A stretch of DNA of 64,000 nt from Betaproteobacteria bacterium (lineage in GTDB: Bacteria; Pseudomonadota; Gammaproteobacteria; Burkholderiales; CAIKXV01), in NCBI GenBank assembly GCA_947458265.1, contig CANGYF010000003.1, positions 248,001-312,000 on the forward strand, read 5' to 3'. Below, in pieces: positions 41,754 to 44,433 of this stretch. Below the pieces are notes generated by a model that was not told where the DNA came from, ran no database searches, and saw only the letters and a list, made by a program, of their open reading frames with translations. Both the position numbers and the translations under genes were made by a program. Position 1 is the stretch's first letter. Every line of letters starts with the position of its first letter.

Positions 41754-41909
41754 CAAGCTGCGCGAAGGATAGCCGTTTTCCGGGGGGCGGTCCAACCGGG
41801 GCCCGGATGACAGGCCGGGAGGCCGGTCTTTCGCGCTGCACGGCCGCCAGGCGCGTTGCAGCGCGTGCGTCGCAGAATCGCGCTATCGTTCCCGTCGGAG
41901 GAAACGAAC

Positions 41910-42776
41910 ATGCGCGAAAAACTCGAATCGATGCAGGCGGCCGCGGCCCGGGTGAAGTCGGGTACCAGCCTGGTGATGAGCGCCAACCTGGAACGGCCGC
42001 CGATGGCCTTCCTGCGCGAACTGGTCCGGCGCAAGGTGCGCGACCTGCGCGTGATCGGCGTGGTCGGTGGCGATCTCAACATCGATTTCCTGGTCGGGGC
42101 CGGCGCGGTCTCGGTGGTCGATACCTGCAGCGTGACCATGGGCGAGTTCGCGCGCACCGGTCCCAACTTCGCCCGGCATGTCCTGGACGCACGGGTAAGG
42201 GCCCTCGACAACACGTGAGGGGTGTTGTTCTCTCAGGCCCAGGCTGGGTCTATGGGTCTTCCGTACGTGCCGGTGATCGGGCTGGTCGGCACCGACCTGC
42301 TCGCCCGCCGCGACGACATGGTGGTTGCGCCCGATCCTTTCGGTGACGGCAAGAAGAGTGTGGTCGCGCGGGCGATGCGGCCCGACGTGGCGGTGTTCCA
42401 TGCGCAGTGCGCCGACCGTGCCGGCAACGTGTCGTTCGGCTACCACGTCGAGGCGGTGATGCTGGCCGAGGCGTCCGCGCAGGTGGTGGTGACGGTCGAG
42501 GAGATCGTCGATCGCGTGACCGAGAAGACGGCCGACGGTGCCTTCCTGCCGTCGATCCTGATCGATGCGGTGGTGCATGCGCCGTTCGGTGCGCATCCGG
42601 GCGGGCTTACGGGGCGCTACCCGGTCGATCGCGACGCAATGCGTGCGTATGCAGCAGCCGCGCAGTCGGACGAGACCTTCGCTGCATGGCTCGATGAACA
42701 CGTCTTGGGCGTCGACGACCAGGCCGACTATGTCGAGCGCTTCGTCCCCGATGCGATCCGCGGGGGCCGGCGATGA
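41910..42776 (+). CDS. CoA-transferase-fold alpha subunit with in-frame TGA at codon 103 (candidate selenoprotein)
   Basis: Alpha subunit of a class I CoA-transferase/IpdA-type enzyme. Codons 1-102 (from the ATG at 41910, GGAGGA seven bases upstream) encode the N-terminal half with PMAFLRELVRRKVRDL and GGDLNIDFLVGAGAV. A single TGA at 42216-42218 interrupts, and the same frame then continues with QAGSMGLPYVPVIGLVGTDLL to a TGA that overlaps the beta-subunit start. The sequence matches family members on both sides without a gap, so only this codon is abnormal. After it come rare codons for this genome (TTG, TCT, GCT, GGT, CTT) and a hairpin. I read the TGA as probable selenocysteine; a nonsense mutation or sequencing error remains possible. 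By memory-based alignment residue 103 corresponds to the active-site Glu of IpdA. Confidence 0.7.
42230..42256 (+). promoter_or_regulatory. SECIS-like hairpin downstream of the in-frame TGA
   Basis: The upper stem pairs 42235-42240 with 42246-42251 (six pairs, one G-U), closing the loop AGGCT at 42241-42245 with guanines at 42242 and 42243. Below it, 42230-42232 can pair with 42254-42256 across small bulges. The loop begins 22 bases after the TGA, inside the range I recall for bacterial SECIS elements, and a G among the first loop bases is the feature SelB-dependent elements share. Folding was done by eye. Confidence 0.5.
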
Positions 42777-43516
42777 GCGACCCGCGCGGTTACAACGACG
42801 ACGAGCTGATGGCAGTGCTGCTGTCGCGCGAGGTGCGCGACGGCGAGATCTCCGCCTGCGGTGCGCTGTCGCAGATCCCGGCCACAGGCCTGCTGCTGGC
42901 GAAGCATACGCATGCGCCCGACGCCGAGCTGATCATCCTGAACACGGTGTTCCGGCCGTTCCACACCTCGCGCCAGTTCCACTTCCTCGCGCAGCGCGGT
43001 GAACTCGGGCTGTTCTTCGTGAGCGGCGTGCAGATCGACCGCCGCGGCAACTACAACCTGCACCAGCTGGGCGAAGACCCCGACCATCCGACGATGCGCT
43101 TCCCCGGTGGCTACGGCGGCGGGATGATCTACTACTGTGCGCAGCGCACCGTGGTGTTCCGCACCGAGCACACCCGGCGTTCGCTGGTCGAGCACTGCGA
43201 CTTCGTGTCTGCCGCCGGCGCCACGCCGCCGGATGTACTTCGGCTCGGCGGCCCGAGCAAGGTGGTCACGCCGAAGGCGACGCTGGGTTTCGACGCCGGG
43301 GCCAGCGAACTGCGCCTGGACTCGGTGCATCCCGGCCACACGATCGACGAGGTGCGCGAGAACACCGGCTTCGACCTGGGCGACACCTCGACGGTGCCGG
43401 CAACCGGTGCGCCGACTTCGGAAGAACTGCGCGTGCTGCGCACGGTCGTTCGGCCGCTGATGATCGAGACCGGGACCTATGCGCGCTGGGCGGAACGGGC
43501 GATCGCGGCAGGGTGA
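42773..43516 (+). CDS. CoA-transferase-fold beta subunit
   Basis: Partner of the TGA-containing alpha subunit, starting at an ATG that overlaps its stop by four bases. The 247-residue product matches IpdB/GctB-type beta subunits: GALSQIPATGLLLAKHTHAPDAELI, VSGVQIDRRGNYNLHQLG, GGPSKVVTPKATLGFD and HPGHTIDEVRENTGFDL. The Glu of class I CoA-transferases expected shortly after the APD-xxLI strand (a GEA-like motif) is not there; the segment reads ILNTVFRPFHTS. The frame is intact throughout, which argues that the alpha subunit is also under selection. Confidence 0.88.
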   Translation: MSDPRGYNDDELMAVLLSREVRDGEISACGALSQIPATGLLLAKHTHAPDAELIILNTVFRPFHTSRQFHFLAQRGELGLFFVSGVQIDRRGNYNLHQLGEDPDHPTMRFPGGYGGGMIYYCAQRTVVFRTEHTRRSLVEHCDFVSAAGATPPDVLRLGGPSKVVTPKATLGFDAGASELRLDSVHPGHTIDEVRENTGFDLGDTSTVPATGAPTSEELRVLRTVVRPLMIETGTYARWAERAIAAG

Positions 43517-43554
43517 TAGCATCGACGCCTGATCTTCCTGCCCGGAGTGCCGAG

Positions 43555-44433
43555 ATGAGCGACAAAGTCTACCTGGACCTCGACCAGAAGGCGCTCGACG
43601 ACGCCTACGATCAGCAGGTCTGGGCGCCGAACTCGAAGCAGGTGAACGGCCGGCTGGCGGTGCTGAGCGAGCAGGTGCGCCAGCGCGTCGGCGCACCGAT
43701 GCGCGCGGCCTACGGGCCGACCGAGGTCGAGCAGCTCGATGTCTATCGCACGAAGGAGCCGAACGCGCCGGTGATGGTCTACGTGCACGGTGGCGCATGG
43801 AAAGGCCATCTGGCGCGCGACCATGCGTATCCGGGCGAGATGCTGGTGCGTGCCGGTGCACACATGGTGGTACCCGACTTCGCCCCGGTGCAGGACGTCG
43901 ATGGCAGCCTGTTCCCGATGGTCGACCAGGTGCGGCGCGCGATCAGATGGACCTGGGAGCATGCGAAGGACTTCGGCGGCAATCCCGATCGCATCTACGT
44001 CTGCGGCCGCTCTTCGGGCGCGCACCTGTCCAGCTGCGCGATGATCACCGACTGGGCTGGCGCATTCGGCGTGCCGGCCGACATCGTGAAGGGCTACGTG
44101 CTCCAGAGCGGCATGTACGACCTGCGCGGGCCGCGTCTGTCCAAGCGCGGTGCCTACGTGAAGTTCACCGACGAGATGGAACACCTGCTGTCGCCGATGC
44201 GCCACCTGGACCGCATCACGGTGCCGGTGTCGCTGCTGGTGGGCACCTTCGAATCGCCCGAGTTCCAGCGCCAGTCGCGCGACTTCGCGCAGGCGCTGAA
44301 GGACGCCGGCAAGGCGGTGACCTTCGAGGTGGTCGAGGGATACAACCACTTCGAGATCGCCGAGACCGCAGCCAATCCGTTCGGTGCCGCCGGGCGCGCG
44401 ATGCTGGCGATGCTCGGCCTGCAGCCGCGCTGA
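43555..44433 (+). CDS. Alpha/beta hydrolase, arylformamidase/esterase-like
   Basis: 292-residue hydrolase of the kynurenine formamidase/HSL-like group. It has the oxyanion motif VYVHGGAWKG, the nucleophile elbow CGRSSGAHLS with the catalytic Ser, an Asp/Glu region near LLVGTFESPEF and the catalytic His in GYNHFEIAET. CGGAG precedes the ATG at 43555, 38 bases after the CoA-transferase beta gene, so it probably belongs to the same transcript. It is convergent with the Bug gene at 44450. The likely substrate is a small amide or ester. Confidence 0.87.
   Translation: MSDKVYLDLDQKALDDAYDQQVWAPNSKQVNGRLAVLSEQVRQRVGAPMRAAYGPTEVEQLDVYRTKEPNAPVMVYVHGGAWKGHLARDHAYPGEMLVRAGAHMVVPDFAPVQDVDGSLFPMVDQVRRAIRWTWEHAKDFGGNPDRIYVCGRSSGAHLSSCAMITDWAGAFGVPADIVKGYVLQSGMYDLRGPRLSKRGAYVKFTDEMEHLLSPMRHLDRITVPVSLLVGTFESPEFQRQSRDFAQALKDAGKAVTFEVVEGYNHFEIAETAANPFGAAGRAMLAMLGLQPR

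Follow-up and report, generated by a model that had tools for sequence, protein, structure and literature searches.

A probable new selenoprotein family with a glutaconate CoA-transferase fold, probably a non-redox acyl-CoA lyase or hydrolase

Most characterised selenoproteins perform redox work or bind metals. Known bacterial selenoproteins carry a hairpin in the coding region after the UGA codon, have relatives with Cys in place of selenocysteine (Sec) and come with the Sec machinery, and the locus described here is alike in these respects. The enzyme that it encodes belongs by fold elsewhere, since the solved structures that match its alpha subunit best are GctA, IpdA and AibA. GctAB (1poi) is a glutaconate CoA-transferase with a catalytic glutamate in its beta subunit; this glutamate is missing here, and GctA has Gln in the alignment column of the proposed Sec. 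IpdAB (6co6, 6coj, 6con) hydrolyses COCHEA-CoA in the degradation of steroid rings, and IpdA has Glu105 where the alpha subunit described here and its relatives have Sec or Cys. According to the extracts of PMC5380842, IpdB also lacks the transferase glutamate and a CoA-transferase activity of IpdAB was not detected. AibA/AibB is a 3-methylglutaconyl-CoA decarboxylase (5mzw) in which Cys56 of the beta subunit stands for the transferase glutamate, and replacing this Cys did not abolish activity (extracts of PMC7756340). Here, in contrast, beta has Leu-Asn at that place and the Sec or Cys sits in alpha, in a column where AibA has Gly. Pairs of the same two subunits with Cys instead of Sec in column 103 are found on plasmids of Sagittula sp. 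P11, Paracoccus methylovorus and Diaphorobacter sp. HDW4B, at 36.6-38.4% identity.

An earlier note on this DNA proposed a candidate selenoprotein of a family that it did not recall among the catalogued ones. In line with this, Table 1 of an inventory of May 2026, with 119 bacterial selenoprotein families and subfamilies, has no PF01144 CoA-transferase entry (PMC13188914), the deep-Sep paper has no occurrence of CoA (PMC12013277) and extracts of a further article contain no CoA-transferase selenoprotein (PMC9312934). Titles and abstract starts in the literature likewise gave none; many subscription papers and preprints lie outside that set, so that a report elsewhere is possible. We describe here what is probably a new selenoprotein family; its members are probably lyases or hydrolases that use Sec and act on acyl-CoA without redox chemistry. 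Three points go beyond the earlier note: a second Sec subfamily that stands apart, the correspondence with Glu105 of IpdA and the probable non-transferase nature of the enzyme. If true, a conserved Sec in an acyl-CoA enzyme extends selenium chemistry to CoA-thioester or C-C bonds. Gene finders that take UGA as a stop would split such genes.

The locus lies in the window, by which we mean the whole stretch of 64,000 nucleotides that was analysed, and comprises the following features:

41897..41902, + strand: GGAGGA, ribosome-binding site of alpha as read from the sequence, ending 7 bases 5' of the start
41910..42776, + strand: alpha subunit gene, PF01144 (CoA-transferase) fold, 288 residues with the putative Sec103
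42216..42218, + strand: in-frame TGA, probably read as Sec103 (from the conserved column, the Cys relatives and the model)
42235..42251, + strand: SECIS-like hairpin AGGCCCA[GGC]UGGGUCU within the coding sequence (from conservation and folding)
42773..43516, + strand: beta subunit gene, 247 residues, CoA-transferase fold by sequence, Leu56-Asn57 at the place of the transferase catalytic Glu
43513..44433, + strand: alpha/beta hydrolase (BD-FAE / Abhydrolase_3), third gene of an apparent operon

The alpha frame has a single internal TGA, at codon 103, and is otherwise open. This confirms the earlier reading of an intact gene with one in-frame TGA; the GGAGGA is present as described, and the alpha stop does overlap the beta start (ATGA, 42773-42776). 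The hydrolase gene in turn overlaps the beta stop if its GTG start is used. Relatives with TGA fall into group A, to which the window belongs, and the distant group B; of the 21 group A rows counted, 18 have a GGAG at most 16 bases upstream of the alpha start. The gene matches its family on both sides of the TGA: against PF01144 the C-terminal half scores 45.5 bits and the N-terminal half 21.5 bits, just below the 23-bit cut-off. Two CoA-transferase models of NCBIfam match alpha, both far below their cut-offs. The CoA-transferase fold, named in the earlier note for alpha, is borne out by its AlphaFold model (pLDDT 92.3, pTM 0.90) and the structural matches given above; the PF01144 fold is thus found in both subunits, in alpha by predicted structure and in beta by sequence only. 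With Rfam at its gathering threshold, two tRNAs and nothing else were found in the window.

In the model of alpha, helix 103-115 begins with residue 103. In a profile alignment the column of this residue holds Glu in 6co6, which is wild-type IpdA, and Ala in 6coj, the IpdA E105A mutant according to the entry title; Sec would thus occupy the IpdA residue that was picked for an active-site mutant. In AtoD-type transferases the same column corresponds to Gln in the motif PQG(S/T)L, which by counted offset would be Gln98 of CtfA. In CtfA of T. melanesiensis this Gln hydrogen-bonds acetate at 2.5 A, beside the catalytic glutamate (extracts of PMC12400318). Together with the match of the alpha fold to transferases, this alignment speaks for the alternative that the protein is a selenoprotein, yet an ordinary CoA-transferase in which Sec merely aids binding of the substrate carboxylate, like the AtoD/CtfA-type Gln. 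We regard this as unlikely because of the beta subunit: the transferase glutamate is absent in 21 of 21 group A loci, all with Leu56 at its place, and kept in 9 of 9 loci with a His-type alpha. Further, the Cys-type pair is directly followed by a gene for a family III CoA-transferase in all three named plasmid loci. These beta counts come from a multiple alignment covering 78 of 83 loci, those in which a beta protein was identified; one group B row, a spurious frame (L079), is left uncounted. The alignment has Leu, Val or Gly and no Glu at this place in 36 of 36 Cys types, and Val in two group B loci (L042, L082), the two of seven that were credibly aligned. In one Cys-type locus (L112, G491:C306) a beta Glu stands one residue past this place (LLES). 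Given the missing beta glutamate and the similar case of IpdAB, our preferred reading is an acyl-CoA enzyme that is no transferase and has Sec as its key residue; a non-transferase reaction of alpha-beta appears fairly likely. One active-site position that is filled by Glu, Cys, Sec, His or Gln offers a ready comparison between IpdA, the Cys relatives and the Sec forms.

Near the window operon are genes for TctC-type receptors, an enoyl-CoA hydratase, a thioesterase, a FAA hydrolase and an IclR regulator. Among 14 regions surveyed, the cluster of alpha, beta and BD-FAE hydrolase occurs only in the three of the own genus (L096-L098), and one other region (L103) has another BD-FAE hydrolase about 7 kb off; the hydrolase encoded at 43513..44433 is a possible pathway partner of alpha-beta. 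In family f6 an NDP-forming acyl-CoA synthetase gene lies at most about 0.6 kb 3' of beta in three of four regions (L099, L101, L102), and in family f46 four of seven regions have a family III CoA-transferase gene at a distance of about 2-6 kb from the Sec-type alpha gene (L103 and L105 for group A, L108 and L109 for group B). A separate enzyme nearby that makes the CoA ester would fit alpha-beta itself acting on acyl-CoA.

In the mechanism that we propose, SelA, SelB, tRNA-Sec and SelD of the host would decode UGA103 as Sec, with the hairpin after the UGA directing its insertion. Alpha and beta would make up an enzyme that shares the fold of glutaconate CoA-transferase but most likely does not have its activity. 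Sec103 would cap a helix where the C-C hydrolase IpdA has Glu105, and the beta subunit is devoid of the glutamate that carries CoA in transferases. Another enzyme, such as the family III CoA-transferase or the acyl-CoA synthetase encoded nearby in several relatives, would make the acyl-CoA, on which alpha-beta would most likely perform C-C cleavage, decarboxylation or hydrolysis; towards the acyl group, Sec may serve either as a nucleophile or in acid/base catalysis. We give even odds to the complete picture, namely a new class of selenoenzyme that works on acyl-CoA as a C-C lyase, decarboxylase or hydrolase with neither a cofactor nor redox chemistry, and whose helix-capping Sec in alpha replaces the catalytic glutamate of the CoA-transferase superfamily, with Sec arisen from Cys twice independently and groups A and B interchangeable.

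The reading that the alpha gene encodes a selenoprotein, with UGA103 decoded as Sec, has in our judgement a probability of about 0.9. The TGA column, the Cys relatives, the Sec machinery and the frozen codons after the TGA all support what the earlier note had proposed as a candidate. Column 103 is TGA in 40 of 40 group A sequences (window included, relatives 58-97% identical) and in 36 of 36 sequences of group B, the distant second subfamily with about 32-37% identity. The group A set comprises 37 genomes and 3 named contigs, which may overlap, and has 34 distinct sequences over 63 bases; that of group B has 35 distinct ones. In the own family all 11 genomes match alpha: nine, including that of the window, have the gene at 82-100% identity and two have only a relative at 32-33%, each with one TGA. 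Within the order sample 71 of 399 genomes matched alpha (E<=1e-20), and one TGA is present in each of the 18 full-length rows of group A, which include the window and have 64-100% identity. Family f46 (74 genomes) has group A in 24 genomes (58-73% identity) and group B in 34 (32-37%), with TGA in the column of residue 103 in all 58 rows, each of which was column-checked. For three group B loci (L078, L081, L082) pairwise BLAST shifts the TGA by one residue and the multiple alignment restores it to column 103. A search of public genome contigs found 12 places, every one with TGA in this column. Two assemblies titled Bordetella parapertussis (L021, L030) hold a group A gene at 95% and 66% identity; these labels look doubtful.

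Outside the two groups, column 103 is mostly Cys, and Trp does not occur in the columns checked. His, Glu, Gln or Gly (AibA) are seen in remoter subfamilies only, for example Glu in a relative from Simplicispira suum. Thus, where the earlier note had looked to homologues for Cys or TGA, close relatives have TGA throughout and the next ones mostly Cys, and the Gly, Arg or Trp that would have spoken against Sec is absent from the close relatives. The 74 rows of the tree set divide into 28 with Sec, 37 with Cys and 9 with His at this column (46 non-TGA rows). Profile searches with E<=1e-35 at class level (369 genomes) and phylum level (398 genomes), which for most genomes scored no more than six candidates, led to 20 fetched loci, 14 with Cys and 6 with His at column 103. 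Among the candidates scored in these searches, 12 TGA-containing rows besides the window were rejected, none having its TGA at column 103. Two order-level rows with TGA (G270, G186) were set aside as well; they have Cys at column 103, and their TGA lies close to where the match ends. A plasmid search yielded 32 records, all below 60% identity.

Selection acts on both parts of the gene. For group A (210 pairs) pN/pS is 0.162/0.528 upstream and 0.206/0.560 downstream of the TGA, and for group B (15 pairs of 6 sequences) 0.109/0.518 and 0.135/0.526, respectively. We show here by computation that alpha is under purifying selection on both sides of the TGA in both groups.

A true stop at the TGA followed by a restart, with two polypeptides making up a split subunit, could account for an open downstream ORF, and start codons are at hand: the window has a GTG 3 nt after the TGA, and an ATG follows directly in 30 of 35 distinct group B sequences. 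This start is, however, not conserved, as group A has GTG in 27 of 34 distinct sequences and GTA or GTT in 7, and five of the 35 of group B have ATA or ATC. The Cys relatives are uninterrupted, and a restart leaves unexplained both why Cys is the usual replacement and why the gene is linked to selA as described below, which makes it very improbable. The in-frame stop and the origin of all 12 public-contig matches in metagenome assemblies or an uncultured-bacterium bin might speak for a decaying gene in which the TGA is a nonsense mutation or a sequencing error. This reading has a negligible probability and is already refuted by the conservation of the TGA, since 76 sequences, the majority of them from separate assemblies, share the codon in that column. 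The ORF is also otherwise intact, purifying selection continues past the TGA and synonymous sites are frozen beyond it. Hardly credible, too, is decoding as another amino acid (Trp, or by general readthrough), which has the open frame and nothing further in its favour, since the own alpha frame ends in TGA in 29 of 30 group A rows, the common replacement is Cys and not Trp, and a dedicated Sec system is present.

The earlier note had pointed to a hairpin at 42230-42256 with a GG-containing loop 22 bases after the TGA. A hairpin is there, with corrected coordinates: it starts 16 nt downstream of the UGA, its stem is formed by 42235-42241 and 42245-42251, and its loop, GGC at 42242-42244, lies 23 nt from the UGA. 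It agrees with the SECIS model given in the legend of Fig. 2 of PMC13188914 (loop of 3-9 nt with G in the first two positions, stem of 4-16 bp, spacing of 16-37 nt, energy <= -7.5 kcal/mol), having the loop GGC, 7 bp, a spacing of 23 and -8.4 kcal/mol. Of the sequences tried, 13 of 21 in group A and all 7 in group B satisfy the model with its energy limit; the eight group A sequences that fail the strict limit have A-C as outermost pair. As background, 450 of 3000 random window positions (15%) pass too, as do 6 of 20 Cys relatives, which we ascribe to chance. Folding of the stretch after the TGA thus recovers the hairpin predicted earlier, but its energy is not significantly better than that of shuffled sequences (z -0.33 to -1.63 for the window, -0.07 to -1.10 for relatives). 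We therefore rejected folding energy as evidence, with z between -0.07 and -1.63 over the alpha stretches folded, and since random positions pass so often the hairpin alone is no evidence either.

What lifts the hairpin above chance is its conservation. All 34 distinct group A sequences share the same codons +6 to +10 after the TGA (CAG GCC CAG GCT GGG); the frozen bases are the six inner pairs and the loop; the outermost pair is A-U in 26, A-C in 6 and A-G in 2. Among 21 group A sequences, degenerate columns with an invariant residue use one codon only in 5 of 6 cases at +6 to +11, compared to 2 of 28 at -68 to -1 and 0 of 12 at +14 to +35. Pairwise codon identity at equal residues follows the same course, with 0.92 at +6 to +11, 0.68 at +1 to +5, 0.58 at -68 to -1 and 0.53 at +14 to +35. 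The RNA constraint that had been suspected from unusual codons around the TGA is hence evident as synonymous sites frozen at +6 to +10 between variable neighbours, a conservation beyond that of the protein. Group B has a conserved stretch of its own, GGG CUG CGU GCA GCC: all 35 distinct sequences have GGG and CTG, whereas CGT and GCA each occur in 33 of them and GCC in 31. Two members (L041, L042) have CGG GCC GCA GCC and retain eight pairs around a GGC loop, and two others have GCT, by which a G-U pair is retained. The case for a SECIS element rests on conservation and not on energy, and the frozen codons are the stronger sign.

The machinery for Sec insertion, which the earlier note had named as a check, was found complete and above cut-offs in the window genome (4.01 Mb in 33 contigs, 97.2% complete, 2% contaminated). 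selA (588 bits), selB (432 bits) and tRNA-Sec (72.9 bits, gathering score 47; anticodon tca by ARAGORN) adjoin each other on contig C18. selD (411 bits) lies at G000:C4:104922-105860 (L009, L111) and has itself an in-frame TGA at its Sec site (GGG-U-GCK); the genome therefore encodes at least two likely selenoproteins. Formate dehydrogenase is the commonest selenoprotein. A TIGR01553 search of the own genome found only partial matches below the cut-off and no formate dehydrogenase alpha above it, so this selenoprotein may be absent. As a control, 14 well-known genomes gave matches above cut-off for selA in 1, selB in 2, selD in 2 and tRNA-Sec in 5. A second match to the tRNA-Sec model (RF01852) in the own genome, just above cut-off, is a tRNA-Ser; with the five control matches, this indicates that the threshold alone is not specific.

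selA also follows the TGA gene across genomes. It is above cut-off in 70 of 73 TGA genomes overall, and in the order sample in 24 of 25 TGA genomes versus 13 of 41 others (Fisher p=1e-7, a value that ignores kinship). Within family f46 alone the link is weak, with 46 of 48 versus 11 of 16 in genomes tested together and 56 of 58 versus 11 of 16 overall. The three TGA genomes without selA above cut-off are 84% (G001), 84% (G1127) and 88% (G1142) complete. One genome with no selA match, G111, is 97% complete and has only an alpha remnant left, 81 codons of a group A gene (69% identity, minus strand, about 719-961 of L083, G111:C72:1-2400) that is broken before the Sec codon. This one case fits a loss of the alpha gene along with the machinery. 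The selA gene of one group B genome (G1114:C16:2522-3880) has one in-frame TAA over its length.

Groups A and B are separate in a tree of 74 alpha proteins in which Sec and Cys were masked (support 100/100 and 99/92), each beside Cys relatives, and a topology that holds them together is rejected (AU p=0.000524). Their hairpins are unlike in sequence. Sec was apparently gained from Cys twice. Six genera (g1, g46, g132, g142, g600, g602) have some members with A and others with B; no genome has both, neither among the 74 of family f46 (Fisher p=4e-9, again ignoring kinship) nor among the 11 of the own family. This distribution, in the same genera and never in the same genome, suggests that the two groups do the same job. 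A further Cys-type subfamily, with the motif KEGACQP and 38% identity, was seen in two genomes (L155/L185 in G1146:C18 and L186 in G1117:C440), both of which also encode a Sec form.
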